Part shown: piece by piece, positions 34,167-48,798 of the stretch
Layout: each line of letters opens with the position of its first letter
Position numbering within the stretch: position 1 is the first letter of the stretch
Assembly (NCBI GenBank): GCA_016931855.1
Contig: JAFGDZ010000046.1
Span: 1 to 64,000, forward strand
DNA: 64,000 nt
Direction of reading: 5' to 3'
Source: Bacteroidales bacterium
GTDB taxonomy: Bacteria; Bacteroidota; Bacteroidia; Bacteroidales; Tenuifilaceae
Made by a program: the position numbers and the translations under genes
Notes under the pieces: model-generated
What the model was told of the DNA's origin: nothing
Databases searched by the model: none
Seen by the model: only the letters and a program-made list of their open reading frames with translations

Positions 34167-34417
34167 ACCTAAAGGTAATACTTTTATGTAATACTGTACG
34201 TAAAGCAGTAATACTCTATGTATTAAACTTGTTGGCAGTATTGCTGTTGTTTTTTTTGAAAATGCTGATTCAATGGCTGTTTGGTGCTTTTATGTAAGTT
34301 GTAGCCCAATATCCCTTTTACTTTTTTTGATGTAAAATGTTTTACTAAGCAGCTAGTTTCTGTTGTGGTTATAATAGTTTGGAGCAAAAAAATGGTTTTG
34401 TAATGTCTTTTCCACAT

Positions 34418-34455
34418 AAAAAAAGCGTCTGGAGCTAAACTCAGGCGCTTTTTTT
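34418..34455 (-). terminator. terminator of the Hdr-like/methionine gamma-lyase operon
   Basis: AGCGTCTG and CAGGCGCT pair (one GU) around a 10-base loop. The outer bases are poly-A on one side and poly-T on the other, so the structure could stop transcription in either direction. It lies 18 bases past the last gene of the operon. Confidence 0.8.
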
Positions 34456-34473
34456 ACTGTGGATTGGTTGGAA

Positions 34474-35658
34474 TTATATCTTGGCTAAAGCCTGGTCAAG
34501 GTCGGCAATAATATCCTCAACATCTTCAATGCCAACGGCAAACCGAACTAGTCCGTCGGTGATGTTTGCTTTTTCGCGTGCCTCCTTGGAGAGCTTTGAG
34601 TGGGTCATTGAGGCGGGGTGCTGAATAAGGGTTTCAACGCCACCAAGCGATACCGCAAGCATGGCCAGCTTTACGTTGTTCATTAGCACCTTACCTGCAG
34701 GTAGTCCGCCTTTAAGCTCAAAGCTAATCATTGCGCCTGGGCCATGCATCTGCTCCTGTGCAAGGTTGTACTGTGGGTGCGATTTTAGGCCAGGATACTT
34801 AACCCAAGCAATTTTAGGGTGATTTTCTAGGTAATCGGCAACCTTTATGGCGTTTTCCTGAGCGCGCTCAACCCTAATGGCAAGCGTTTTTAGCCCACGA
34901 ATAACTAGGTATGCTTGGTGTGGATCCATGTTGCAGCCAAGGTTAACCATAGCAGGACGAACCTTTTTGTAGAGCTCCTCGTTTTTGGTGATGATAATAC
35001 CGCCCACAATATCGGCATGGCCGTTAATGAACTTGGTTAGGGAGTGGAACACGATATCGGCACCAAGGTCTATTGGACGCTGTAGGTATGGGCTAGAGAA
35101 AGTGTTATCCACAACCAGAACAAGGTTATGCTCCTTGGCAATTCTAGCGCAGGCCTTAATGTCGGTAAGCTCCATAGTTGGGTTGGTAGGAGTCTCAATG
35201 TACAGCACCTTAGTGTTAGGCTTTATAGCCTTTACAATATTCTCTGGGTTTGATGTTGATATGTACGATGACTCCACTCCAAACTTAGCAAAGAAGCTTT
35301 CCATGATACCACGCGATGGGCCGTAAACAGCATTGGTGCTAATCATGTGGTCGCCCGATTGTAGCAGCGCCATGTAAATGGTGGAAACAGCTCCCATTCC
35401 CGATGCGGTGGCAATTGCGCCAAAGCCATTCTCCAGAATGGCAACCTGCTTCTCTAGTGCCGATATGGTTGGGTTGCCTATGCGGGTGTAAATATAGCCA
35501 TCGCTTTCGCCAGCAAAGCATTTTGCTCCCTCATCAACATTAGGGAAACCAAAGGTTGATGTTTGGTAAATGGGCACGGTGGCGCTTCCGTACTGGTCGT
35601 CAATTGCTCCTGCGTGAATAAGTAGGCTGTTAAAGCCCAATTTTTTCGAGTTATCCAT
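34474..35658 (-). CDS. trans-sulfuration PLP enzyme, methionine gamma-lyase/cystathionine gamma-synthase-like
   Basis: A Cys/Met-metabolism PLP enzyme of 394 residues. The PLP lysine is Lys209 in [20 protein letters not shown] (55-64) and the Asp184 region [12 protein letters not shown] are also present. Methionine gamma-lyases usually have a cysteine two residues after the active-site tyrosine (YGC). Here the residue is Pro114 (YGP), so substrate choice could be different (cystathionine, homocysteine or an O-acyl-homoserine). The gene begins 5 bases after the HdrD-like gene and shares its operon and terminator. Which sulfur reaction it performs cannot be decided from sequence alone. Confidence 0.85.
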
Positions 35659-35663
35659 TGTTA

Positions 35664-37496
35664 TTAGTTTACTGTTGATGTTTCCTTTGCTGTTTGTTTC
35701 TGCTCTGGCTTGCTGCTTTGCTTGGTGTTGGCGAAGGCCTTAACCAGAATTTCAGAAATGTCTAATATAGCATTTTCATCGGAAGCAGCCGTAAATGTCT
35801 TTTTGCAAAGAGGACATGCTGTGGCAACAAAATCAACATCGTTGGCACCAATGCTCTGCAATGTTTTTCTTGCCATTTGATTGCGTTGCTGCTGGTTAAT
35901 GCTGGTTATGGCAAGGCTGCCCCCGCAGCAAAGGCTATTGGTTTTGCTACTTTTTACCTCAACCAAATTGCCAGCAAATTTGAGTAGCTCACGGGGCTCG
36001 TCGTAAACGCCTAGTCCGCGTCCCAGTTCACAGGGATCATGGTAGGTTATTAGGTTGTTAGAAGGGGCAAGCTTTAGCTGCCCCGATGCTGCCAATTGGT
36101 ATAAAAACTGGGTATGATGGTAAACAGGAATGCTTAGCTCGTAGCTCTCAGCAAAAATCCTTGCGCAAATAGGACAAGTGGTAACTAGCGCCTCAGCACC
36201 TGTGCCCTCAATTAGCTGCTTGTTCTTTTGGGCTAGCTCTCTTGCTGCATTCTCCTCCCCATTAACCTGTAGCGGACGGCCACAGCAAATGGTGGCATCC
36301 TTATCAATATGCGTGTACTCAACATCAGCAGCATCAAAAAGGGCAAGTGTTGCCCTTGTTACGCTTGGTGTTAGCTGGCCCATGCATCCTGCAAAAAAGG
36401 CAATTTTCCCTTTTGATGCCTCAATGGCTGGCACGTAGCCAAAGCTTGTGCCTGTTGCTGGGCTTTCCCTCCGCTGGTTAAGTCTTATGGTAGAGTTCTC
36501 AATGCCAACGGGGCAGGAATAATCGCAGCGGCCACAAAGCATACAGGTTTCCGTTAGGTAATCGGTGGCTTTTTTATCGCGAAGCGATTTTAAAAAGTAG
36601 GTCGATTGGGAGCTGGATATGCCCAACTCGCTGCTTAGCTGGCAGCTATCTATACAAATGCCGCAGCGGGAGCAGGCGTTTAGCTCAACTTGTGTGTACG
36701 ATGTATGCTTTTCCGTTTCTTTTATTCCATACTTTCGAAGGAATATTAGCAGCGTTTCTGTTGGAATATGCATGTACCGTGTAAAGGGAACCGATATAAA
36801 GAATAGCCCTAGCGATAGGGAATACGCCCACCATAGCGGGTAGTAGAGCATATCAATAGCGGGTAATGGGGCTATTGCCTCGCCCAACCAACGGGTAAAG
36901 AAGCCGCCTGTGCCATAAAGGCCTGCCGTAACGCTCTCCGCAGCAAGTCTAAGTGGGAATATTAGCCAAAGCGATGTTAGCGCCAGCTTATCAACAAACG
37001 CATGCTTTGTAGCCTGTTTCATTCCTAACGGCTTGCTTGTTGCCCTTTTAAAGTAGGCAAGTGCTACGCCCGATAGCACAAACAGCAGAAGGAAATCCAT
37101 GACAAAGGTGAAAATCTCTTTGTACCGAAGCGTGCTTAAATCGTGCTCAAAAAACTCAAAAAAGATGGGAACGTAGGGCGGATTTAGCTGTCCGTGGGTA
37201 AAAATCCTAGTCTCAAGGTTTCCCATCGCAATAAGTAAAAACCAGCCCAAGGCAAGGCTCATGTGCATGTAGCCCAGCAGGAAGTTCTTTTTAAACACCT
37301 TGCGGTGAAAAAGGCTTTCGGCAAGAACTTCCCAAGTGGCCAATAGCGATTTTTTTGTGAAGATATTCCCTTTAACTTGGCGTTTCTGCTGGTTGTTTAG
37401 CCCTTTAATCCAAATTATCCATTTAGCGGCAACTACAATAACCAAAAAGAGTAATCCTGCGGTAAAGGGTATTACAAAGTGGTGGTAGTAGCTCAT
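35664..37496 (-). CDS. membrane-bound HdrE-HdrD/DsrMK-like fusion protein
   Basis: A 610-residue protein. The first 245 residues have five hydrophobic helices (about 8-30, 73-92, 127-148, 170-192, 217-243) with histidines in or next to helices 1, 2 and 5 (H5/H6, H78, H243), as in NarI/DsrM-type b-heme subunits. Two 4Fe-4S motifs follow (C275-C285 and C318-C328). Two complete CCG cysteine-rich domains close the protein (C371, C404-405, C441, C444; and C489, C523-524, C561, C564). These are noncubane cluster sites of HdrB/HdrD. It probably links the quinone pool to a thiol-disulfide site. It overlaps the upstream HdrC-like gene by 4 bases. Confidence 0.85.
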   Translation of the reverse strand: MSYYHHFVIPFTAGLLFLVIVVAAKWIIWIKGLNNQQKRQVKGNIFTKKSLLATWEVLAESLFHRKVFKKNFLLGYMHMSLALGWFLLIAMGNLETRIFTHGQLNPPYVPIFFEFFEHDLSTLRYKEIFTFVMDFLLLFVLSGVALAYFKRATSKPLGMKQATKHAFVDKLALTSLWLIFPLRLAAESVTAGLYGTGGFFTRWLGEAIAPLPAIDMLYYPLWWAYSLSLGLFFISVPFTRYMHIPTETLLIFLRKYGIKETEKHTSYTQVELNACSRCGICIDSCQLSSELGISSSQSTYFLKSLRDKKATDYLTETCMLCGRCDYSCPVGIENSTIRLNQRRESPATGTSFGYVPAIEASKGKIAFFAGCMGQLTPSVTRATLALFDAADVEYTHIDKDATICCGRPLQVNGEENAARELAQKNKQLIEGTGAEALVTTCPICARIFAESYELSIPVYHHTQFLYQLAASGQLKLAPSNNLITYHDPCELGRGLGVYDEPRELLKFAGNLVEVKSSKTNSLCCGGSLAITSINQQQRNQMARKTLQSIGANDVDFVATACPLCKKTFTAASDENAILDISEILVKAFANTKQSSKPEQKQTAKETSTVN

Positions 37497-37825
37497 GGCG
37501 TAGTGGTTTGTGCCTTGCGAACAAGGCGAATTATGTTTCGGGTGTTCACGTTACGCGGGCAAATAAGTGTGCACTTTCCACAAAGCATGCATTTAGAGGC
37601 TTCCTCAATAGCCAAGGTAGTATTGCCTTTGCGTATTTGGTGGCACATTACCCTAAAGCTGAACTTGGTAAACTGTCCTGCTGTGCAGGTTGCGCTACAG
37701 CTGCCGCAGCTAATGCATAGGTTAAACGATGGTTCGTGCTCCGTAATTTGCTTTGCAAGGCTTAGGTTAGCCTTGTCCAAATCGGTTACGCCAGCGGCAA
37801 AGGGGGTAAATCCAAAGTCAATCAT
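37493..37825 (-). CDS. small HdrC-like 4Fe-4S protein
   Basis: A 110-residue soluble protein with two 4Fe-4S binding motifs: C37, C40, C43, C47 (CISCGSCSATC) and C79, C82, C85, C89 (CMLCGKCTLIC). The spacing between the motifs and the short helical linker fit HdrC of heterodisulfide reductase. It lies 3 bases after the FAD subunit and overlaps the HdrED-like gene by 4 bases. It probably passes electrons between those two. It is one of two HdrC-type subunits in the operon. Confidence 0.85.
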   Translation of the reverse strand: MIDFGFTPFAAGVTDLDKANLSLAKQITEHEPSFNLCISCGSCSATCTAGQFTKFSFRVMCHQIRKGNTTLAIEEASKCMLCGKCTLICPRNVNTRNIIRLVRKAQTTTP

Positions 37826-37828
37826 AGG

Positions 37829-38839
37829 CTATCGGCTTAGGTAGTTGTGAACATCAAGAGCCGTTGCCTTGGCGGCATTTACGGTATCGGTAATGTTGTT
37901 AGGCCCAGTGCAGGCACCTGTAACAAAAACGCCTTTTGTGGTGGTTTCTGTTGGATTGGTGTGCAGGTCGGTGGCGGCAATAAAGCCGTCGGCATTTAGG
38001 CTTAGGCCAAGGTCGGCTGCTAGCTTGCTGGTATCGAGCTGGGGCGACATGCCCACCATAAGCACAACAATATCAACCGACATTTTTAGTGGGGTTGATG
38101 CTAGCGTATCCTCTGCCTTTATTTGCACACGGCCTCCTTCTATCTCGCTGCTTTCCGATAATCGGCCCCTAATAAACGTAACGCCCTTGCTTTGAGCCTC
38201 CTTGTACAAATCTTCGTAGCCAGGGCCAAACATGCGCAAGTCCATGTAAAAGCAGAACACCTCGCAGTTTGGTATAGCCTCCTTTACCTCAATGGCCTGC
38301 TTAACTGCGGTAACGCAGCAAACCTTTGAGCAGTAGGGTCGGTTTACCTTCTCGTCGCGGCTACCCACGCAGTGAATAAAGGCTATGCGTACGGGTTTAT
38401 GACCGCTTGCCATAGCCGGTTTGCCGTGCTTTATGAACATCTGCTCTAAATCGGCCGATGTTATTACGTTCTCAAATAGCCCGTAACCGTACTCCTCTTT
38501 TTTTTCGGCGGGGAATAGTTCAAATCCTGTGGCTAGCACCACAGCATCGGCCTCATGGTTATTGCTATTGGCCGATATAATAAAGTTTCCGTGTTGGCGC
38601 TTAATGCTGCTTACCGTTGTTCCTACAAGCGTTTGGGTGTTTCCTTGCGATAGCGTGAGCGAAGATACCACCTCGCTTGCATGGCGCTTATTAGGGAAAA
38701 GCCGATCCCATTTGGCCACATGGCCACCAAGGGTGTTCGATTTTTCGAATAGTTTAACGCTATATCCTAGCGAGTTAAGCTGCTTGGCTGTTTCAAGTCC
38801 AGCAACTCCTCCACCAATAATTGCAACTGTTTTGGTCAT
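37829..38839 (-). CDS. HdrA/QmoA-like FAD-dependent oxidoreductase subunit
   Basis: A 336-residue flavoprotein with the N-terminal FAD-binding motif GGGVAGLE (9-16), a GGHVAKWDRLFP segment as in HdrA, and a C-terminal GVFVTGACTGP FAD motif. The HdrA-specific cluster ligands are present (C157 in HCVGSRDE and C170, C174, C175 in YCSKVCC). It lacks the N-terminal and C-terminal ferredoxin domains and the thioredoxin-reductase-type additions of methanogen HdrA, so it is the flavin core only, most like QmoA in layout. Flavin-based bifurcation is therefore not implied. It sits between the HdrB-like and small HdrC-like genes. Confidence 0.85.
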   Translation of the reverse strand: MTKTVAIIGGGVAGLETAKQLNSLGYSVKLFEKSNTLGGHVAKWDRLFPNKRHASEVVSSLTLSQGNTQTLVGTTVSSIKRQHGNFIISANSNNHEADAVVLATGFELFPAEKKEEYGYGLFENVITSADLEQMFIKHGKPAMASGHKPVRIAFIHCVGSRDEKVNRPYCSKVCCVTAVKQAIEVKEAIPNCEVFCFYMDLRMFGPGYEDLYKEAQSKGVTFIRGRLSESSEIEGGRVQIKAEDTLASTPLKMSVDIVVLMVGMSPQLDTSKLAADLGLSLNADGFIAATDLHTNPTETTTKGVFVTGACTGPNNITDTVNAAKATALDVHNYLSR

Positions 38840-38857
38840 ATAGGGTTTAGGGTTAGG

Positions 38858-39931
38858 CTATTTGTAAAAGTTGATATTTCGGGGCGATTCGGGTACTCCA
38901 AGGTCTTCTCCTTTTGCTCCTTTGTACTTCTCGTTTAAGTTGTATGGGATACCAATTTTGTCCATTAGCGTTTCAATGCCCACTTGGTGCATTTGTAGGC
39001 CCATTTCCCAAGGGTCAAAGCCAAGCATAAGGCCAGCTAGCTCCTCGTAGGCCAAAACGGGTATCCCGTTACCTTTTGTATCGTAGGTTTTACCTTCCAT
39101 TTCGGCAAGGGCGTACTGCCATCTATCCATAAAAAAGTTACATCCAGGGCAGTTGGTTAGGATTAGGTCGGGCTGGTAGGGTTCCATGGACTCAAACTTT
39201 TTCTTTGATGCGGCAATGGAGTACCCTCTGTTGGCCTTTATAAAGTACTGCCTAAAGCCAAATCCGCAGCAGTGGCGCCTCTCGGGGTAGTCTATAACCT
39301 CGCCGCCAAAAGCCTCAATTAGGCCCGCCAATACGTGTGGATGCTCTGCGCCACCAATTCCTTTGGCTGGGAACATTTTGGCGTAGTGGCAGCCAATGTG
39401 GTCAACCACCTTTAGTGGTAGTCCAGTAGCCTTGTTAATTAGCTTGTACTTAGATTTTTCGGCAATTTGGTGGCGGAACTTATAGATTATATCGCTGGTG
39501 TGCGCCATGTTTCCCGGTTCCTGAAAATCGCGCTGGGTGGCTTTTTTAAGGTATTCGGCGGTGCGTTTTCTCTCCTCGGGAAAGTGGTGCCAGGTATCGA
39601 GCACCTCGGTATATATGCCAAACGATGTTACGCACGATGGGGTGTAGTTCTCGTACCCAGCTTCGCGCATTAGCGCAAAGTTGCGGGCAACAACGGTTTG
39701 GATGGTTTCAAACGGAACAACCTCGGTATGGTAACCAATGCCGGTGCAGGTGGTGTGGTGCGCCGACTCGTGAACATCCTTTTTTAGCACATCGCGCATA
39801 ATGCGCAGGTAGGTGTTCTCGCTCCCTGGGAAAACCGCTTGGCGTATGCAGCTTCTAACGTAGAAGTACTTATCGTCAGCAATTTCCTTTTGGTATTCGT
39901 TCCAAATCTTACGTTTTCCTTCGAGTTTCAT
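38858..39931 (-). CDS. HdrB-like CCG-domain protein with a degenerate first cluster site
   Basis: A 357-residue HdrB-family protein with two CCG cysteine-rich domains. The second is complete: a GCH cysteine, RHCCGFGF, and NCPGC. The first is not. It keeps C28, C62 and C100, but CCG has become CTG (Thr63) and CxxC has become CVTS (Ser103). In methanogen HdrB both domains hold noncubane 4Fe-4S clusters that cleave the heterodisulfide, so this protein probably carries one such cluster. It follows HdrC by 70 bases and precedes HdrA by 18. The substrate is not known. Confidence 0.83.
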   Translation of the reverse strand: MKLEGKRKIWNEYQKEIADDKYFYVRSCIRQAVFPGSENTYLRIMRDVLKKDVHESAHHTTCTGIGYHTEVVPFETIQTVVARNFALMREAGYENYTPSCVTSFGIYTEVLDTWHHFPEERKRTAEYLKKATQRDFQEPGNMAHTSDIIYKFRHQIAEKSKYKLINKATGLPLKVVDHIGCHYAKMFPAKGIGGAEHPHVLAGLIEAFGGEVIDYPERRHCCGFGFRQYFIKANRGYSIAASKKKFESMEPYQPDLILTNCPGCNFFMDRWQYALAEMEGKTYDTKGNGIPVLAYEELAGLMLGFDPWEMGLQMHQVGIETLMDKIGIPYNLNEKYKGAKGEDLGVPESPRNINFYK

Positions 39932-40001
39932 TCAAAAAAGTTTATTCAATGGAGAGCCTTGGTTGTGCCTATGGCTCTGTTGTAAGTGGTTAACTTAGTG
40001 G

Positions 40002-40715
40002 CTATTTTCTTGAGTGCTTGGCGTGGTTGTTCCTGTTGTAAACCTCGGTAAAGTATTCCGATGATTTTCCTTCTCCAATTTCCAGTCCCATTTCCTTGGC
40101 TTTTTTTGCCGAGTGCTCCTCAATGGTTTCCATCCATTTTAGTCCGCCGGAAACCTCAAAGATATTACGCAGCTCATCAATATCGCTTTGCGGAATAGAA
40201 CGCATAGCACCAGGGCCATTGCCCTTGTAGTTGGCGCCCACTTTGGGTAAAAAGGCCTCTCTGTTATCTTGAACCCATTGCCACATGGGGCCTTGCTCTG
40301 GGAACATATCAAGGGTGGTGTGGTCAAAATGTACGCAGTAGCCTGTTTCAATAATGGTATCGCTAAGCATGCGCTTAAGGGCAAGCTGCTGGCGCCCTTT
40401 TTCCGACTCCACAAACAGCCCCGTTTCTATGGAGAGCTTACGAAGCGCTTGAATAATTAGCCCCGGCGCATTGTTCCTTGGGCAGCGGGTTTTGCAGCTC
40501 ATGCACTCGCCGCAGTACCAAATGGTATCGCTTTTTAGGAGATTTTCAATTATGCTATCGTCCCTAGTTTGAACAAGATGAGCTATGGTGCGGGGTTGGT
40601 AATCGTAAACCTCAGCGGCAGGACAAATGGCGGTGCAGGTACCGCAGTTTATGCATCCGTTTATGCCTTCTACAAATCTTACATCGCTATTTAGCTTATC
40701 AAAAAGTTGTCCCAT
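40002..40715 (-). CDS. HdrC-like iron-sulfur protein
   Basis: A 237-residue protein, the first gene of the operon. It has two 4Fe-4S motifs: C21, C24, C27, C31 (CINCGTCTAIC) and C68, C71, C74, C78 (CGECMSCKTRC), each followed by proline, as in HdrC/GlpC. An extended C-terminal region (about 85-237) without cysteine motifs sets it apart from methanogen HdrC. A likely partner is the HdrB-like protein encoded next. A promoter-like element lies about 48 bases upstream of the start. Confidence 0.83.
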   Translation of the reverse strand: MGQLFDKLNSDVRFVEGINGCINCGTCTAICPAAEVYDYQPRTIAHLVQTRDDSIIENLLKSDTIWYCGECMSCKTRCPRNNAPGLIIQALRKLSIETGLFVESEKGRQQLALKRMLSDTIIETGYCVHFDHTTLDMFPEQGPMWQWVQDNREAFLPKVGANYKGNGPGAMRSIPQSDIDELRNIFEVSGGLKWMETIEEHSAKKAKEMGLEIGEGKSSEYFTEVYNRNNHAKHSRK

Positions 40716-41112: not shown

Positions 41113-41115
41113 TTG

Positions 41116-42162
41116 ATGCTAGATTTTACTCAGGTTGCACTAGATAGTATTGCTATTCATCGCGTTGGCAGCAGCGCTCGCGAGGGCGAGCTTTTTCTTG
41201 CCCAAAAGCTTGTTGATATTCAGGACGAGAACGTGCTTTTCCTTTTGCAGCATTACTTTCTAACGCCATTTAAGCCCACCTCTTTTTTCAGCTTTAGCCA
41301 CGATGCAAAGCTTGAGCTAAATGAGGTGTACAGCTACGTAACCGAGATTTTCCAGAATCCCGATTCGCTGCTTGAGCAATCGGCAAATATTGCCCGTTGC
41401 CTGCACGCAGCAAGTCAGCATCCAAACATAAAGGAGGGTGAGCTTTACGTTGTACGCTTTAGCGATTGTGTTGTGGAAGGAGAACTTGTTGATGCGCTGG
41501 GGATATTCAAATCGGAATCGAAGGAGCACTTTATAAAGGTTTACCAAAAGCAGAACAGCTTTGGGGTTGATGCCGATGAGGGTATCAGCATACATAAGCT
41601 GGACAAGGGATGCCTTATTTTTAGTACCGAGCAGGAGCTAGGCTTTAAGGTTTGTGTGGTGGATAGTACCAACAAATCGGACGAAGCACGTTTTTGGAAG
41701 GATCAGTTTCTAAAGATTAAGCCCCGTGAGGATAACTTTTACCAAACTAGTGGGTATATCGATCTTTGCAAATCGTTTGTGAAGGAGGTATTTAACGACG
41801 AGAATAACGTGGAAAAGCCCGATCAGCTTACCATGATGAACAAAAGCCGCGACTTTTTCCAGCAAAAGGAGGTGTTTAGCTCCGATGAGTTTGAAACTGA
41901 GGTGATGCAGCAACCCGAAATTATTGATGCTTTCCGCGATTATAAGGAGAAGTACCAAGCGGAGCAGGGCTGCAACCTTAGGGACGAGTTTACCATATCT
42001 ACCGATGCAGCCAAGCAGGCTAAGAAGGTGTTTAAGAGCGTAATAAAGCTCGATAAGAATTTTCACCTGTATATTCATGGTGGGCGTGAGCGCGTTGAGC
42101 GTGGAACCGATGAGGAGAAGGGCTTGAGTTTTTACAAGCTATACTTTGAGAATGAGGAGTAG
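41116..42162 (+). CDS. nucleoid-associated protein (NdpA/YejK family)
   Basis: A 348-residue protein of the NdpA (YejK) family, recognisable by the N-terminal VALDSIAIHRVGSSAREGELFLAQ segment, the FSFSHDAKLELNEVYSYV helix and the C-terminal FTISTDAAKQAKKVFKSVIKLDKNFHLYIHG block. Family members bind the nucleoid; their exact role is unsettled. I chose the ATG at 41116; a TTG immediately before it gives one more residue. The gene stands alone and ends in a strong terminator shared with the convergent carotenoid genes. Confidence 0.85.
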   Translation: MLDFTQVALDSIAIHRVGSSAREGELFLAQKLVDIQDENVLFLLQHYFLTPFKPTSFFSFSHDAKLELNEVYSYVTEIFQNPDSLLEQSANIARCLHAASQHPNIKEGELYVVRFSDCVVEGELVDALGIFKSESKEHFIKVYQKQNSFGVDADEGISIHKLDKGCLIFSTEQELGFKVCVVDSTNKSDEARFWKDQFLKIKPREDNFYQTSGYIDLCKSFVKEVFNDENNVEKPDQLTMMNKSRDFFQQKEVFSSDEFETEVMQQPEIIDAFRDYKEKYQAEQGCNLRDEFTISTDAAKQAKKVFKSVIKLDKNFHLYIHGGRERVERGTDEEKGLSFYKLYFENEE

Positions 42163-42256: not shown

Positions 42257-43105
42257 TTACGATAACCCCACCTTAACTTTAAAAGCGGTTGTTGTTAACA
42301 GCCAGAATTTAACCACATTGCTAATCCTGTACCTTTGCTGCAAAACCTGCTGAGGATTGGTTCGGCGTATCTTTTTAAACAAACGTAGGTAGTACTTATA
42401 GGCAATAAGTACTCCTAGCTGTGCTTCTTTGGGAAGCATCTTAATCCCTTTGTAGGCCTCTTCAAAATCGAGCCTAATATCGTCCTCAATTCGTTGCTTA
42501 TCCTCTTTTGTGAACTGTGCAAAATTTACGTTTGGGAAATATACTCGGCCCAAATCAATATAGTCATCTTTTAAGTCCCTTAAAAAGTTGATTTTTTGAA
42601 ACGCAGCACCCAAGCGGCGTGCCGGTGTTGTAAGCTCTTGGTACTGCTTGCTATTGCCATTACAAAAAACTTTAAGGCACATAAGTCCAACCACCTCGGC
42701 CGAGCCGTATATGTACTCATTTAGCTCGTTTCTGCTGTAGGCGTTTTTATGTAAATCCTGTTCCATGCTGTGTAAAAAGGCATCAATAAGCTCGGTTGGT
42801 ATGCTATACTTATTTACCGTTAGCTGGAAACTTTGTAGTATGGGGTTTGTGCTTATACCCTTTTCTATGGCTTTGTAGGTTGTTGCTCTAAACTCATTTA
42901 GCAGCTCCTGCTTGTTGTAGCTGTGGAAGGAGTCAACTATTTCATCGGCAAAGCGCACAAAGCCGTATATGGAGTAAATGGCTGGTCTTATTGATTTATC
43001 AAGAGCCATAACGCCTATAGCAAAGCTTGTGCTGTAGGCTTTTGTGGTTAACTTGCTACAGCCTAGGCTGGTGCTGTTGTATAGGTCTATTCGGTTAGCT
43101 GCCAT
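42257..43105 (-). CDS. crtB: phytoene/squalene synthase family protein, probable phytoene synthase
   Basis: This enzyme condenses two geranylgeranyl diphosphates to phytoene. The 282-residue protein has both aspartate-rich motifs: DEIVD in the FVRFADEIVDSFH helix (first) and LRDLKDDYIDLGRVYFP (second), which bind diphosphate through Mg2+. The start overlaps the end of crtI by 11 bases, so the two are coupled, and that pairing favours phytoene synthase over squalene synthase. It is the last gene of a crtI-crtB operon facing the nucleoid-protein gene. Confidence 0.93.
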   Translation of the reverse strand: MAANRIDLYNSTSLGCSKLTTKAYSTSFAIGVMALDKSIRPAIYSIYGFVRFADEIVDSFHSYNKQELLNEFRATTYKAIEKGISTNPILQSFQLTVNKYSIPTELIDAFLHSMEQDLHKNAYSRNELNEYIYGSAEVVGLMCLKVFCNGNSKQYQELTTPARRLGAAFQKINFLRDLKDDYIDLGRVYFPNVNFAQFTKEDKQRIEDDIRLDFEEAYKGIKMLPKEAQLGVLIAYKYYLRLFKKIRRTNPQQVLQQRYRISNVVKFWLLTTTAFKVKVGLS

Positions 43106-44570
43106 ACTTCTTTTGAATTTTTTCGGTTGCTAATCGTGAGCTAATTACTGCCATGGGTAGTCCTGTTCCAGGTAGAGTGCTGGCTCCCACATAAAATACG
43201 TTGCCAAACTTTTCATCGTTGTTATGCGGACGGAAGTAGCCAATTTGGTTAAGGTCGTGTGCCAAACCAAGCCCGCTGCCCTTGTAAAGGTTAAACATCT
43301 GCATCCAGTGCTGTGGGTTTAGCACCGTTTTGGACACAAGGTTTGCCTCTATGTTGTAACCAACGCGGCTGGATATATCCTTCATGATGTTTGTTGCCAG
43401 CCATTCGGAGTCGTTCCAAGTGGGTTTGTAGCGTAGGTCTGGAACTGGGCATAGAATAAAAATATTCTCGTGCCCATTGGGTGCGCTTTGGGGCGTTGTT
43501 TTGCTAGATACGTTTACGTAGTAGTATGGTTTATCAAGGCTGATACTGTTCTTAAATACCTTTGAGCTGTACTCCTTAAAGTTGTTTCCCAAAAAGTAGT
43601 TGTGGTGATGCAAACCCTCAATATTCCCCTTAACGCCAAGGTACATGGTAAACGGCGCTAGGGTCCACTTCATTTTATCTAGCTTATCGTTAGAGAAAGC
43701 TTGTCGGCGGAGAACTTTGCCACGGAACCAAGCTGCATCAGCGTTTATCACATAAACATCGGCAGTGTATTGCTTGCCATTGTTATCAACAAGTGCCGAT
43801 ATTTGTCCTCCTTGCTCCCTAAAATCAACAATCTCAGTATTGTACTGTACGGTAATGCCCCTTTTGTTTATTTCGCGCATTAAGCCTTCCACTATTTGGT
43901 ACATGCCACCTTCCACGTTATGGTAGCCATCGTGTTGCATCTCGGTGTAAGTAAGCATGGAGTAAACTGCAGGGGTATCAAACGGGGTTGCGCCAAGGAA
44001 AAAGGCCACAAGGGAGAATATAACCTTAACCTCGTATGAGGAGAAGTGGCGGTTCATTTCGCTCCACATACTGCGTAGCATTAGGGGCGCATGTCTTGGT
44101 GGTACACTAGCAAGCGCCGCAGCAAACTTTAGCAAGGAGTCAAAGTTTCGCCTAATTATGCGATTCTCGGTATCGTGGAAAAGTCTGCCCGTTTTTATGA
44201 GGTACTTGCGCATCTTCTCCTCAAAGTTGGGCTCAACATCGCCAAACTCCTTGGCTAGCTTATCCAAATCCTTAAAAATGGTGTACCAGCGTGTGCTTCC
44301 GGCAAAGTTTACGGAGTATAGTGGGTTCATCTCTATAAACTTAAAAGGCATATCTATTCCACAGAACTGGGCAAACTCCTTAAATTCATAGCTCATGGAG
44401 AAGAATGTGGGGCCAATATCAAATGTAAAGCCATCGGCCTTTAGCTGGTTTAGCCTACCGCCTGGCTGATGGTATTTCTCCACCATCTCTACATCATAAC
44501 CCAATGTGCTTAATCGGAGGGCAGTTGTTAGTCCTCCAAGTCCAGTTCCTACAATAAGAGCCTTTTTCAT
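43095..44570 (-). CDS. crtI: phytoene desaturase CrtI family
   Basis: A 491-residue FAD-dependent CrtI-type desaturase/isomerase. The dinucleotide motif GTGLGGLTTALRL is at 8-20, followed by EKYHQPGGRLNQL, and the C-terminal CrtI signature FYVGASTLPGTGLPMAVISS is intact. It converts phytoene toward lycopene in several steps. It overlaps crtB by 11 bases, and is divergent from a second CrtI-like gene across a 209-base promoter region. Which of the two paralogues does the main desaturation is inferred from the crtB pairing and the shape of the signature. Confidence 0.93.
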   Translation of the reverse strand: MKKALIVGTGLGGLTTALRLSTLGYDVEMVEKYHQPGGRLNQLKADGFTFDIGPTFFSMSYEFKEFAQFCGIDMPFKFIEMNPLYSVNFAGSTRWYTIFKDLDKLAKEFGDVEPNFEEKMRKYLIKTGRLFHDTENRIIRRNFDSLLKFAAALASVPPRHAPLMLRSMWSEMNRHFSSYEVKVIFSLVAFFLGATPFDTPAVYSMLTYTEMQHDGYHNVEGGMYQIVEGLMREINKRGITVQYNTEIVDFREQGGQISALVDNNGKQYTADVYVINADAAWFRGKVLRRQAFSNDKLDKMKWTLAPFTMYLGVKGNIEGLHHHNYFLGNNFKEYSSKVFKNSISLDKPYYYVNVSSKTTPQSAPNGHENIFILCPVPDLRYKPTWNDSEWLATNIMKDISSRVGYNIEANLVSKTVLNPQHWMQMFNLYKGSGLGLAHDLNQIGYFRPHNNDEKFGNVFYVGASTLPGTGLPMAVISSRLATEKIQKKYGS

Positions 44571-44737
44571 CCTAATAGCCGAGTTTATTCTGGTTAATGA
44601 TTTACTGTAAAAGGTAATATGTTACTTGTATTTTGTGCCATAATATTATAAATCTTCAATTTAGAGAAATTATCGTACATTTAGGCAAAGTGAAGCATCC
44701 TCAATTTTATTTTCTTATATCATTAACCAATTTAAGA

Positions 44738-44745
44738 TATTTTTG
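44738..44745 (+). promoter_or_regulatory. -7 element for the crtD-like gene
   Basis: TATTTTTG matches TAnnTTTG, 34 bases before the start codon. No equally good element faces crtI on the other strand. Confidence 0.45.
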
Positions 44746-44779
44746 TTTAATAATTAACCAATAAAAGTTAATCAAAATT

Positions 44780-46246
44780 ATGCGTGCATCCGTAATTGGT
44801 TCTGGCGTTGGAGGACTAGCTTCGGCTATCCGACTAGCTGTTAAGGGTTACAAGGTAACCCTATTCGAAAAGCAAGGAAGGGTGGGCGGTAAGCTTGGTG
44901 AGCTTAGAATTGGCGATTTTAGGTTTGATACTGGCCCTTCGCTCTTCACCTTACCTACTCTTGTTGATGAGCTGTTCAATTTGGCTGGCGATGTGGGATT
45001 GGAGCGCTTCTCGTACCGCAAGCTTCAAAATATTACCCGCTACTTTTACCCCGATGGGGTAACCCTTAATGCTTGGGCCGATGTGGATAGGTTTGCCTCG
45101 GAAATGCACGACGTGCTAAACGAGCCGGAACTTAACGTGCGCAGGTATTTGAGAGATTGCGAGAAGCTGTACGGACTAACCTCTAAAACCTTTATGTTTA
45201 GCCCGTTTCCTAGCAAAAAGGCTTTTTTTAGCGATGAGGGGAAGGCAATTGGTAAGAACGTAATGCAGCTTAAGGCTTTTGAGAGTATGCATAGCGTTAA
45301 TAGCAAAAGTTTTGTTACTAGGCATGCCGTACAGCTGTTTGATAGGTTTGCAACCTATAACGGCTCAAATCCATACAAAGCCCCAGGAACGCTAACTGTT
45401 ATTCCGCATTTGGAGCATAATGTTGGTGCTTTTTTCCCGGAAAAGGGGATGTACAGCATAGCCACGTCAATGGAGACATTGGCCAAGAAGCTTGGAGTTG
45501 AGGTGGTGCTTAATAGTAGGGTGCAGGCCATAGAACCGCGGCGGGGGCGCATTGCTGGGATAAAGGTAAATGGCGTATCGGCTGCTGCCGATATAGTAGT
45601 TAACGATACCGATATTTTTACCGCATATCCCGAGTTGTTAAGCCCCAAACGGCTTAGCTCCTTTTATAAAATGCAGAAGCCATCGTCGTCGGCACTTATC
45701 TTTTATTGGGGAGTAAAGGGTAATTTTCCCAAGTTAGACCTGCATAATATCCTCTTTAGCAGCGATTATAAGGGCGAGTTTAACACCCTGATGCGCAAAG
45801 ATATTAGTATAGACCCAACGGTTTATATATTCATAAGCGCAAAGGCTGTTCCTACCGACGCACCTATGGGACATGAGAACTGGTTTGTTATGGTGAATGC
45901 GCCCGAGGATTGTGGTCAGAACTGGGACGAGTTGGTTAAGCGCACCCGAATTGCCATTGTTGAGAAGATTAAGCGCACCTTAGGGATAGATGTTGAGCCC
46001 CTTATTGTTTGCGAAAATGTGCTAACGCCACCGCTAATAGAGCAGCGAACAGGCTCTTATCGGGGTGCCCTGTATGGCATTAGCTCCAACAACCCATTTG
46101 CTGCGTTTAGTAGGCATCCCAATCGTTCCCGAAGCATACAAAACCTGTACTTTGTAGGGGGGAGCGTGCATCCAGGCGGAGGTATTCCTTTGTGCTTAGC
46201 ATCAGCAAAAATTGTTGATGAGTACATTAGCGAGGCGGGTTTGTGA
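44780..46246 (+). CDS. CrtI-family carotenoid desaturase, probable 1-hydroxycarotenoid 3,4-desaturase (CrtD-like)
   Basis: A second CrtI-family enzyme, 488 residues, with the FAD motif GSGVGGLASAIRL and EKQGRVGGKLGEL, and a C-terminal LYFVGGSVHPGGGIPLCLASA signature. It clearly differs from the crtI product next door. Its order with a CruF-like hydratase, a glycosyltransferase and an acyltransferase fits CrtD, which desaturates 1-hydroxy-carotenoids at C3-C4. The first gene of a five-gene plus-strand cluster. The assignment to CrtD, rather than another desaturase or ketolase of this superfamily, is from context. Confidence 0.8.
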   Translation: MRASVIGSGVGGLASAIRLAVKGYKVTLFEKQGRVGGKLGELRIGDFRFDTGPSLFTLPTLVDELFNLAGDVGLERFSYRKLQNITRYFYPDGVTLNAWADVDRFASEMHDVLNEPELNVRRYLRDCEKLYGLTSKTFMFSPFPSKKAFFSDEGKAIGKNVMQLKAFESMHSVNSKSFVTRHAVQLFDRFATYNGSNPYKAPGTLTVIPHLEHNVGAFFPEKGMYSIATSMETLAKKLGVEVVLNSRVQAIEPRRGRIAGIKVNGVSAAADIVVNDTDIFTAYPELLSPKRLSSFYKMQKPSSSALIFYWGVKGNFPKLDLHNILFSSDYKGEFNTLMRKDISIDPTVYIFISAKAVPTDAPMGHENWFVMVNAPEDCGQNWDELVKRTRIAIVEKIKRTLGIDVEPLIVCENVLTPPLIEQRTGSYRGALYGISSNNPFAAFSRHPNRSRSIQNLYFVGGSVHPGGGIPLCLASAKIVDEYISEAGL

Positions 46247-46252
46247 TTGGAG

Positions 46253-46397
46253 ATTAGTGTTTAGTGTTTAGTGTATAGTGTTTGGTTTCTTTAATCTTAT
46301 ATCTATCGTCTAAAGTCTAACGTCTAATATCTAACGTCTTCTCTTAATCCTTTAACCTTTAACCTTTAACCTTTAACCTTTAACCTTTAACCTTTAA
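46253..46397. repeat. three consecutive 7-bp arrays filling the crtD-cruF gap
   Basis: The 165-base gap is made almost wholly of heptamers: NTTAGTG-type units x4 (46253-46280, with one TATAGTG), TCTAACG-type units x5 (46302-46336), and CCTTTAA x7 exact plus a degenerate eighth (46349-46404). The last array ends a few bases before the cruF-like start codon. All three arrays have the same 7-bp period but different unit sequences, and the same heptamers recur at two other intergenic sites. Confidence 0.85.
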
Positions 46398-46411
46398 CCT
46401 TTCATCCTTCC

Positions 46412-47056
46412 ATGTCTTCAAAATCACTAAAAATAGCAGTAGCCCTTTCCTATGCCATTGGTGTAATGGGTTTATGGCTTAAGCGTGACAATCCTGAGGT
46501 ATTTAAGTTAAGCTGGATGTTTTCGGTAGCCTCACTAGTGGCGTTGATGCTTTTTCATAAGCAATACACAAAGCGTTTTGTTCTGCTAACCCTACTAGTA
46601 GGCTTATTGGGGTGGCTTGTAGAGGCTGTTGGCGTGAATACAGGGTTAATTTTTGGCGATTACATTTATGGTGAATCACTTGGTTTAAAATTGCTCTCAA
46701 CGCCCCTTGTAATGGCAGTTAACTGGATTTTTATGGTTTATGCTACAACCTATGCCGTTACCCGAGTTAAGCTGTTTACCAATCGCTACGTTGCATCTCT
46801 TATGGCAGCCATTGTAATGGTTGGTTACGATTTTTTTCTTGAGCCCGTTGCCATAAGGCTACAGATGTGGGCTTGGGCAACCGTAAATCCGCCAATCCAA
46901 AACTATGTTGGGTGGTTTTTAACGGCCTTCCTTTTTAGCTTGTTGATGATTAGGCCGATGCAAAAGGCGGAGAATTCCATCTCAAATTGGCTGCTTGCCT
47001 GTCAGTTCCTATTCTTTGTGGCGATGTATATATCAATTGTTTTCCTTGGATTTTAA
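46412..47056 (+). CDS. cruF: carotenoid biosynthesis membrane protein, CruF/DUF422 family
   Basis: A 214-residue inner-membrane protein with about seven hydrophobic helices. It has the family segments GWLVEAVGVNTGLIFGDYIYG and YDFFLEPVAIRLQMW. CruF proteins hydrate the terminal 1,2 double bond of acyclic ends of carotenoids, making 1-hydroxy ends. The start codon lies right after the CCTTTAA array. It follows the crtD-like gene, and the acyltransferase gene begins 12 bases later. The CruF label rests on family features plus the surrounding genes. Confidence 0.85.
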   Translation: MSSKSLKIAVALSYAIGVMGLWLKRDNPEVFKLSWMFSVASLVALMLFHKQYTKRFVLLTLLVGLLGWLVEAVGVNTGLIFGDYIYGESLGLKLLSTPLVMAVNWIFMVYATTYAVTRVKLFTNRYVASLMAAIVMVGYDFFLEPVAIRLQMWAWATVNPPIQNYVGWFLTAFLFSLLMIRPMQKAENSISNWLLACQFLFFVAMYISIVFLGF

Positions 47057-47068
47057 CCTTGCTGCTGT

Positions 47069-47692
47069 ATGATAATGCCTAGGCACACATCCCTTTACAT
47101 CCGTTTCTTTAACTGGTACACAAAACGAATTCTGCGCAGCGATTTTCATGATGTGAGAGTTGTTGGGGATATAAGCCTAAAATCAACCGATTCCATACTG
47201 CTTATTCCCAACCACTTTAGCTGGTGGGATGGTTTTTTTGCCTGGCATCTTAACCGTGTGCTACTTCAAAAGCGGTTTCATGTTATGATGTTGGAGGAGC
47301 AGCTCTCTAAGCATCGGTTTTTTAGTAAAATAGGTGCTTTTTCTGTTAATCCGCATAGCAGAGAGATTGTGGAAAGCCTTACATTTGCCTCTGGTTTGCT
47401 GAGGTCTAAGGGAAATCTGCTGGTGTTCTTTCCGCAGGGGAAGTTTTATTGCCAGCATATTGCCGAGTATCAGTTTTACAAGGGGGTAGAGCGACTAGTG
47501 CTCCAATCGGCTACATGCAAAACGGTTTTTGCAAATGTTATTATAGATTATTTCGAGAACCGGAAACCCACCGCGGTAATTCATTTTAAGGAGGTGGGTA
47601 TTGCAGGACTTTCAGCAACAGAAATAGCAAAGGAGTACACCGCTTTTGCTAATGACTGTAGGTTAAATCAGCAAAAAATATTTAAGCAATGA
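47069..47692 (+). CDS. PlsC-like acyltransferase, possibly acting on a glycosylated carotenoid (CruD-like role)
   Basis: A 207-residue acyltransferase of the LPLAT fold with the HX4D catalytic motif NHFSWWDGFF and a FFPQGKFY version of the FPEG motif. Family members esterify glycerol-3-phosphate or other alcohols with acyl-CoA or acyl-ACP. Here it lies within a carotenoid operon, between the CruF-like and glycosyltransferase genes (4-base overlap with the latter), which suggests transfer of a fatty acid to a carotenoid glycoside, as CruD does in Chlorobi. This substrate is inference; it could also be a lipid acyltransferase. Confidence 0.8.
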   Translation: MIMPRHTSLYIRFFNWYTKRILRSDFHDVRVVGDISLKSTDSILLIPNHFSWWDGFFAWHLNRVLLQKRFHVMMLEEQLSKHRFFSKIGAFSVNPHSREIVESLTFASGLLRSKGNLLVFFPQGKFYCQHIAEYQFYKGVERLVLQSATCKTVFANVIIDYFENRKPTAVIHFKEVGIAGLSATEIAKEYTAFANDCRLNQQKIFKQ

Positions 47693-48798
47693 TAGCCTTT
47701 TACCTTACCCTTCCGCTTGTGCTGGTTGCTGTAATCCGGCTTTTGGTTGTGCTTTTTAACTTTTTAAGTAAACCCTATTTGCCCGTTAGTTCACCTAAGG
47801 TGAGCCCGATGGTTTCGGTACTAGTACCCGCACGTAACGAGGAGGCCAACATCGCAAATCTTCTTAATGGTTTGCAATTGCAGGAGTATTCCAACATGGA
47901 GATTCTGGTTTACAACGATGAGTCAACCGATAGCACCGCCGCTATAGTTGACGAATTTGCTAATGCTGATTCTAGAATTCGCCTTATTAACGGTGATTCT
48001 AAACCCGAGGGATGGATGGGCAAGAACTATGCTTGCCACAGGTTATCGGAGCAGGCTAGGGGAGACTATTTTCTTTTTCTTGATGCCGATGTAGCCGTAA
48101 AGCCTAGTTTTGTTGGTAGTTCATTAGCGTATTTGGAGTCCAAAAGGTTAACGTTACTTAGCATGTTTCCGCACCAGCAAATGGGTACTTGGGGCGAGCG
48201 TGTTACCGTTCCCGTTATGCAGTGGGTACTGCTAAGCCTGCTTCCATTGCGCTTTGTGATGTGGTCTAAACGCCGTTCCCTAGCAGCAGCAAATGGTCAG
48301 GTTATGCTTTTTGATGCCCATTTGTACAAGCAGTACCAGTGGCACCAGCAGTTTAAGGATTCTGCCGCCGAGGATATTGCCATTAGTCGTGGCATAAAGC
48401 GGGCAAGGCTTCGCATGGCAACCCTTTTGGGGAGCGATGATGTATCGTGCCGTATGTACCACTCATACACCGATGCGGTAACGGGTTTTGCAAAAAATGT
48501 TTGTCAGTACTTTGGTGGTAACCGCATGGTTATGGCAGTTTTTGCGCTGTTATCAACCTTTGGTTTTATTCCAGTGCTGTACTTTGTGCCATTCCCATTG
48601 GTATTTGTTTACCTATTTGCCAAAATATTTTCCCGTATGCTAGTGGCCTACCTCACATTTCAGAAGCCGCTGGTAAGCGTTCTGTTACAGCCAGTGCAGC
48701 AACTGGCGTTTTTGCAAATGGTTTGGCAATCACTTAAGTTACATTCAGGTAAAGAGCTAATATGGAAAGGACGAGCATACTCAAAGGAATCGCTTTAA
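47689..48798 (+). CDS. family 2 glycosyltransferase, CruC-like or CrtQ-like
   Basis: A 369-residue GT-A glycosyltransferase. An N-terminal helix (about 1-25) anchors it, the catalytic core has SVLVPARNEE, YNDESTDST and the DXD-type FLFLDADV, and two or three hydrophobic helices close the C terminus. This layout fits the membrane-associated glycosyltransferases that attach a hexose to hydroxylated carotenoids. It overlaps the acyltransferase by 4 bases (ATGA) and the following TPR gene by 37 bases. The sugar donor is unknown. Confidence 0.83.
   Translation: MIAFYLTLPLVLVAVIRLLVVLFNFLSKPYLPVSSPKVSPMVSVLVPARNEEANIANLLNGLQLQEYSNMEILVYNDESTDSTAAIVDEFANADSRIRLINGDSKPEGWMGKNYACHRLSEQARGDYFLFLDADVAVKPSFVGSSLAYLESKRLTLLSMFPHQQMGTWGERVTVPVMQWVLLSLLPLRFVMWSKRRSLAAANGQVMLFDAHLYKQYQWHQQFKDSAAEDIAISRGIKRARLRMATLLGSDDVSCRMYHSYTDAVTGFAKNVCQYFGGNRMVMAVFALLSTFGFIPVLYFVPFPLVFVYLFAKIFSRMLVAYLTFQKPLVSVLLQPVQQLAFLQMVWQSLKLHSGKELIWKGRAYSKESL

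Follow-up and report, generated by a model that had tools for sequence, protein, structure and literature searches.

The window analysed here, a 64,000-nucleotide stretch of a Bacteroidales bacterium of the Tenuifilaceae (GCA_016931855.1, contig JAFGDZ010000046.1, positions 1-64,000 of the forward strand), carries on its minus strand a set of five genes, here called C1, B1, A, C2 and ED. The set resembles known heterodisulfide reductases (Hdr) but matches none of the well-studied types. Its architecture is well supported, and the products very probably form a membrane, quinone-linked Hdr-type complex, judging from the model of ED, which aligns over its whole length with the ETF:menaquinone oxidoreductase EtfD. 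Quinone linkage had been proposed in a first-pass annotation of the DNA, and this alignment supports it. As to function we favour, tentatively, a five-subunit membrane complex in which thiols or sulfane sulfur would be oxidised at B1, the electrons passing via flavin adenine dinucleotide (FAD) and iron-sulfur (Fe-S) clusters to menaquinone.

A five-gene set conserved in Bacteroidales

Six open reading frames (ORFs), all on the minus strand, follow one another in the order C1-B1-A-C2-ED and then a gene for a pyridoxal phosphate (PLP) enzyme of the methionine gamma-lyase (MGL) type. C1 (40002..40715) encodes an HdrC-like protein of 237 residues with two [4Fe-4S] motifs (Pfam Fer4_8), B1 (38858..39931) an HdrB-like protein of 357 residues in which Pfam recognises one CCG domain, and A (37829..38839) a 336-residue HdrA core flavoprotein. 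A short second HdrC-like protein of 110 residues, again with Fer4_8, is the product of C2 (37493..37825), and ED (35664..37496; 610 residues) combines a NarI/HdrE-like membrane part with Fer4_8 and two CCG domains. The PLP enzyme (34474..35658; 394 residues, Pfam Cys_Met_Meta_PP) is an associated gene outside the conserved core. Gaps of 70, 18 and 3 bases separate the first four genes, C2 and ED overlap by 4 bases, and 5 bases lie between ED and the PLP gene. The ORFs and the Pfam matches bear out the annotated close spacing of six genes and their identities as HdrC, HdrB, HdrA, HdrC, an HdrE-HdrD fusion and a PLP enzyme.

Scanning genome contigs with B1 confirmed 249 stretches, and the 80 best were retained. 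Sixty-four of these have at least 1 kb before and at least 3.6 kb after B1, and the order C1-B1-A-C2-ED on one strand is found in 63 of the 64, the sole exception (L065) having C1-B1 only. Among the other 16, shorter loci, 12 have at least a part of each of the five genes, three end at C2 and one (L087) has C1-B1 only. Some loci come from records whose titles name the gut genera Odoribacter and Butyricimonas; four records titled as non-Bacteroidales (L047, L048, L070, L078) presumably reflect labelling noise.

At the level of genomes, a sample of 395 from the phylum, which holds few members of the window's order, yielded the window and two weak B1 matches only (29-31% identity). A sample of 247 genomes from the order itself has B1 in 79 at E <= 1e-20, two of them (G038, G481) with a partial B1 only. 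The distribution envisaged for Bacteroidota at large is accordingly narrower, since within these two samples only the window's order yielded close relatives. ED reaches E <= 1e-20 in 117 order-sample genomes: 77 have a best E-value of 1e-78 or lower, here called strong, and the remaining 40 one of 3e-29 or weaker, the listed matches being to the CCG part of other proteins. Strong ED is present in 77 of the 79 genomes with B1 and in none of the 168 without it, so that the co-occurrence and the conserved order, which the annotation had put forward for checking, both hold. In one of the two B1 genomes without strong ED (G650) the contig ends inside A; in the other (G473) the only pair found is a solo C1'B1', a second type of pair described below.

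This co-occurrence survives unlinking, which we regard as the strongest indication of a joint function of the five proteins. The order is changed to C1-C2-ED-B1-A in G499 and G600 (reordered loci L158 and L159), B1-A and ED lie on different contigs in G027, G537 and G633, and in G508 A-C2-ED is on one contig and C1'B1' on another (loci of the unlinked cases: L152-L155, L161, L162). ED matches with internal stops occur in G027, G044, G481, G564, G621, G644 and G656, as assembly errors or as decay of ED with B1 kept.

Eleven fetched loci contain C1'B1' without A, C2 or ED within the stretch. In a 94-sequence tree their B1' proteins and those of L152 and L087 make up a single clade of 13 leaves (support 99), and they have the same three-cysteine pattern as B1 (see below). 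Nine of the ten order-sample genomes in which C1'B1' was found also have strong ED, a partial count, as the typing of B1 was not exhaustive. G508 has A-C2-ED with C1'B1' as its only head, a term used here for B1 with C1, which suggests that C1'B1' and C1B1 share an A-C2-ED base. From these gene distributions the C1B1 head looks exchangeable, and the A-C2-ED base appears to serve the solo C1'B1' lineage as well.

The reference search among annotated collections covered plasmids only and gave one close outside relative, in Picosynechococcus PCC 7003 (NZ_CP016476.1; L104:11242-16982), with the order C1-B1-A-C2-B2 followed by a Pyr_redox_2 protein. Its B1 and A are 43.8% and 40.8% identical to those of the window. 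The first four genes and the three-cysteine pattern of B1 are shared, but where the Bacteroidales have ED this cluster has a soluble B2, with two CCG domains, and the Pyr_redox_2 protein. The best NCBIfam model for the latter is type III sulfide quinone reductase (SQR), at 83 bits against a cut-off of 525, a distant hint only.

Cluster sites and structure models

Cluster ligands are strictly kept in the small subunits and in A: C1 and C2 each retain eight cluster cysteines in every covering row, and A its C157, C170, C174, C175 motif. (The window is counted twice in the conservation rows for B1, A, C1 and ED.) B1 is HdrB-like, as annotated, in that its C-terminal CCG site is complete (C181, C221, C222, C261, C264), but it is not an ordinary HdrB, for the N-terminal site is reduced to three invariant cysteines, C28, C62 and C100, in 76 of 76 rows. 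These rows represent 75 distinct sources, drawn from 73 of the 80 loci and including the Picosynechococcus homologue. A conserved serine, Ser103, aligns with HdrB Cys81, which a passage of PMC13083937 describes as the bridging cysteine. Which member of the former CC pair has been lost varies with the alignment used, that with HdrB or that of the C-T-G motif common to EtfD. For modelling, 30 of 74 length-filtered B1 sequences and 41 of 68 for ED were used, the window included. The B1 model (mean predicted local distance difference test score (pLDDT) 82.3; below 50 at residues 1-14, 183-196 and 225-236) has 5odc_B as its best PDB match, with a TM-score of 0.67 by query.

In A, Pfam finds Pyr_redox_2 only, and the annotated lack of ferredoxin domains is confirmed. 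sHdrA (6TJR) aligns over residues 3-329, and identity to the methanogen HdrA core is 40-42%. This last likeness is what would speak for flavin-based electron bifurcation as in methanogen HdrABC, a reading that we consider very improbable because A has no ferredoxin domains and the genome no FlpD: the FlpD/MvhD family has no match at E <= 0.001 across the whole genome. In addition, the 6TJR paper reportedly argued that the homologous stand-alone sHdrA does not bifurcate. A scan of ten neighbouring genes, two of them without any family match, recognised no hydrogenase. The annotated absence of hydrogenase and MvhD nearby, and the non-bifurcating character deduced from it, agree with these results. 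When 22 HdrA core sequences were placed in a maximum-likelihood tree over 232 columns, the Bacteroidales A proteins grouped with that of Picosynechococcus (ultrafast bootstrap 89), and sHdrA 6TJR, three HdrA proteins of methanogens and the L023 proteins resembling QmoA and QmoB fell outside this group. With few references and a long sHdrA branch this is a limited test. A, the only subunit placed in a tree with such references, is thus not found inside any of the few defined clades represented, where the annotation had allowed that every subunit might belong to one.

The model of ED (mean pLDDT 90.5 from 41 sequences) has five long N-terminal helices, matching the five membrane helices first annotated. 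Its best Foldseek match in the PDB is EtfD (9OJN, E 1.5e-20), and VIA-align superposes model residues 3-595 on EtfD with Z 24.3 and a root-mean-square deviation of 4.5 over 553 aligned residues. Taken separately, the CCG part aligns with LutA (integrative model, Z 21.5) and with HdrB chains (Z 18.8-19.9), and the membrane part with NarI (Z about 9); racemases and other folds also listed, at Z <7, were taken as background. The predicted fold is therefore that of the EtfD/FadF-type ETF:menaquinone oxidoreductases, with the same domain order (NarI-like domain, two cubane motifs and two CCG domains in one chain), five membrane helices and one conserved heme-type histidine pair. All eight ferredoxin and ten CCG cysteines are kept in all covering rows, and H64, H243 and, but for a single X, H78 are invariant. 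The single heme b of EtfD is described as ligated by H78 and H241 in a passage of PMC13083937; from its position, H243 would be the partner of H78 in ED.

The likeness to EtfD raises the possibility that ED is the cell's ETF:menaquinone oxidoreductase, a general entry point at which the electron source of the Hdr subunits would be ETF, NADH or another flavoprotein and not sulfur. EtfD is after all its closest whole-length structure, the window's genome has two EtfAB loci on other contigs (adjoined, by eye, by acyl-CoA dehydrogenase-like genes), and no CCG protein besides B1 and ED was found there. Yet no ETF is linked to ED or recognised among the 45 most frequent neighbour families, the partner being the C1B1A-C2 set, and in the 247 genomes strong ED is always accompanied by B1, which would be odd for a general ETF dehydrogenase. 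The cluster ligands also differ. By passages of PMC13083937, Thr539 of EtfD replaces a CCG cysteine and His583 is the ligand to cluster D2; in the alignment these positions are taken in ED by C405 and I443 (motifs C404-C405 and C441-P-I-C444), and FadF and DgcB likewise differ from EtfD there. With Cys405 and Ile443 in place of Thr539 and His583, the CCG sites of ED look like those of a catalytic Hdr, with complete Hdr-type cysteines, unlike the sealed wire of EtfD, whose ligand set is absent. Altogether we think a general ETF function distinctly unlikely.

The same cysteines bear on a second alternative, in which the complex runs in reverse, menaquinol delivering electrons through heme and clusters to ED, with two complete noncubane sites as in HdrD, or to B1, for the reduction of a disulfide, for example in thiol upkeep or the feeding of a peroxidase. 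All ten Hdr CCG cysteines are present in ED, including the one at the Thr539 position, and the His583 ligand is replaced by I443. A gene of the glutathione-peroxidase family lies just upstream in L041, L091, L095 and L100 (Pfam-checked for L041), and thioredoxin and TrxB-like flavoproteins are found near C1'B1' in L152 and L147 (Pfam Thioredoxin and Pyr_redox_2; TrxB by eye). However, the peroxidase adjacency is confined to a few, similar loci, and menaquinol is a weak donor for ordinary disulfides, so that proton motive force or a disulfide of high potential would be needed. We regard reversal as unlikely, and since menaquinone is more positive than most thiol couples the oxidation direction is preferred in what follows.

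Relation to known systems and the proposed electron path

The closest parallel to the system as a whole is sHdr, the sulfur-oxidising heterodisulfide reductase-like system, with an EtfD/HdrDE-like subunit replacing B2, rather than the Qmo or DsrMK complexes to which the set had first been likened. Passages of PMC11582611 name A, C1 and B1, the last as the proposed catalytic subunit, as common to sHdr types I and II, and define a cluster by an H gene plus either C2B2 (type I) or B3 with etfAB (type II). The Bacteroidales set likewise has C1-B1-A together in the same order, a stand-alone HdrA core and a C2 as in type I. But C2 and ED directly follow A in the window, without an H gene between A and C2 and without B2, B3 or etfAB; the membrane protein ED stands instead, and A does not group with the single sHdrA reference in the tree. 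Surveyed sHdr clusters, according to a passage of PMC6067878, come with the lipoate-binding protein LbpA. As H, B2/B3 and a clustered LbpA are missing, we have filed the set under neither sHdr type.

The methanogen HdrDE and HdrABC, Archaeoglobus Hme, DsrMK and Qmo are made of the same building blocks, which is the level at which Hme and HdrDE are likened here; the tree against defined types covered A. The set differs in the fusion of E and D, the absence of FlpD and scores far below the NCBIfam cut-offs: A reaches 273.7 of 1100 bits for HdrA, B1 153.3 of 450 for HdrB, C1 98.6 of 350 for HdrC and 49.1 of 300 for QmoC, and ED 75.2 of 400 for DsrK. An open-licence literature search of titles and abstract starts found no description of the five-gene unit, nor do the passages available from PMC12345210, PMC7382037, PMC10266427, PMC8470020 and PMC6742706 describe it in Bacteroidales.

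In the oxidation that we tentatively favour, the C1B1 head would meet thiols or sulfane sulfur, the probable carrier of the substrate being a protein or a small thiol. B1 would pass the electrons on to the two clusters of C1, from which they would reach the FAD and the cluster of A and then, by way of C2, the clusters of ED, its one heme b and finally menaquinone, which anaerobic Bacteroidales can reoxidise with fumarate. This would be the job that sHdr does with lipoamide and nicotinamide adenine dinucleotide or ETF, but with electrons going straight into the quinone pool. Complex formation, heme and quinone binding, substrate and direction are all inferred, and the sulfur substrate, which we agree with the annotation in calling undefined, is the weakest link, resting on gene context.

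That context comprises MGL genes near B1, sulfur-transfer genes in one C1'B1' locus and the distantly SQR-like flavoprotein of Picosynechococcus. The two top-ranked NCBIfam models for the PLP enzyme are methionine gamma-lyases, both matched below cut-off (511.4 of 666 bits and 497.7 of 549.7). Of the 46 MGL copies that B1 genomes of the order sample contain, 5 are no more than 5 kb from a B1, where 0.17 would be expected in a post hoc test that assumes a 3.6 Mb genome and random placement; without the window's genome the figure is 4 of 45 (P 3e-5), G005 belonging to the window's family. The gene follows ED in the window and in L023, L024, L025, L110, L113 and L160, and is absent after ED in L107. 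Its annotated place as an operon member therefore stands in part: it adjoins ED in the window and recurs beside C1B1 elsewhere, but follows ED only in part of one family, and is best described as a lineage-specific neighbour that recurs beside C1B1 pairs above chance. A role as obligate sixth subunit was rejected, its genome co-occurrence with B1 being at chance and its position after ED confined to some genera of the window's family. MGL is also present in four of the eleven solo stretches (L108, L148, L150, L156), adjoining B1' in L150 and L156. Beside C1'B1' in L109 (1-7145) lie two TusA, two DsrE-like and four rhodanese-like proteins, a YeeE-type transporter and a porin-like protein, four of them Pfam-checked (one each of TusA, DsrE-like, rhodanese and YeeE) and the rest assigned by eye.

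Eight of the eleven solo loci (L106, L145, L146, L147, L148, L150, L151, L156) contain at least one Nitro_FeMo-Co (NifX-type) protein, Pfam-checked in each, and most of the eight also hold MinD/ferredoxin ATPases, Mrp, DUF134, CGGC or OsmC proteins (by eye, with single examples Pfam-checked). We take these neighbourhoods to resemble the orange protein (ORP) clusters of Desulfovibrio. Against MrpORP, a protein described in passages of PMC6345978, the L106 Mrp reaches 268 of 450 bits. A link between an HdrBC-like pair and genes of orange-protein type is absent from the literature passages available.

Several observations weigh against thiol or sulfur oxidation as the role of the complex. MGL proximity at C1'B1' may belong to an ORP-like cluster for metal or Fe-S cofactors, as in the eight solo loci, and across genomes MGL goes with B1 only as chance would have it (40 of 79 genomes with B1, 75 of 168 without, p 0.41), as does QmoC (20 of 79 and 33 of 168, p 0.32). 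The surroundings of the operon showed no LbpA-like gene, and the window's genome has only one stand-alone GcvH without recognisable maturation genes in flanks of about 1.5 kb. No gene family outside the core is shared by over 11 of the 81 neighbourhoods, and no sulfur-transfer family was recognised among the neighbour families present in more than four loci. Finally, the direction of electron flow cannot be read from sequence. A further GcvH-like stretch was seen inside a 547-residue protein of the window's genome.

A broader proposal, which we hold to be possible but doubtful, is that these genes represent a third architectural class of sHdr type, with a menaquinone-linked A-C2-ED base, interchangeable C1B1 heads (in the operon, or as solo pairs near MGL and ORP-like genes) and a new three-cysteine Fe-S site in B1. 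The set would then join sHdr sulfur chemistry with quinone wires of EtfD type and predict a noncanonical three-cysteine cluster. If so, fermenting Bacteroidales, gut species included, could use the quinone pool as an outlet for electrons from thiols or persulfides, and about one third of the sampled genomes of the order (79 of 247) would have a quinone-linked thiol/sulfur oxidoreductase.

Surroundings of the operon

An intrinsic terminator lies 3' of the PLP gene (34415..34462, minus strand). A simple stem scan overlooked it and a folding test detected it, with -17.0 kcal/mol and z -4.97 for minus strand 34462-34415, none of 200 shuffles being equally good. This confirms one half of an earlier assignment of one promoter and one terminator. 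The evidence for the promoter is weak: sigma-70-like sites number 8 where 9.8 are expected, and a full promoter pattern scan has no match at TATATTTG, a sequence spotted by eye about 50 bases before the ATG of C1, which we take to resemble a Bacteroidota -7 element.

Conserved neighbours of the five-gene unit, which the annotation had asked after, did not emerge, as the recurrence figures above show. In three loci of the window's family the five-gene unit is preceded, at a distance of about 1-5 kb, by a cluster of DsrE-like, MvhD, QmoA, QmoB and QmoC-like genes (L023:414-7959; L144:4736-10740, with L107; L160:10502-11158, where only QmoC is visible at the contig end). The L023 QmoA-like protein (916 residues) appears by eye to be fused with a flavoprotein of glutamate-synthase type. 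A Qmo-linked sulfur pathway, at which these loci hint, was rejected as a general partner, QmoC co-occurring with B1 at chance and having no match in the window's own genome.

The neighbours of the operon in the window are a TPR protein, a transglycosylase, a secreted protein, an NA37 nucleoid-associated protein and carotenoid-type genes. The NA37 (37-kD nucleoid-associated) gene (41113-42162) is divergent from C1, and similar proteins recur at this place in L021, L022, L023, L025 and L107. On another contig of the same genome (C47, L170), an 827-residue frame combines what by eye is a CoA-disulfide-reductase-like protein with a TusA domain, possibly a persulfide or polysulfide enzyme. Within the window, phytoene synthase, two phytoene-desaturase-like proteins and a glycosyltransferase at 42257-48798 suggest a carotenoid cluster.

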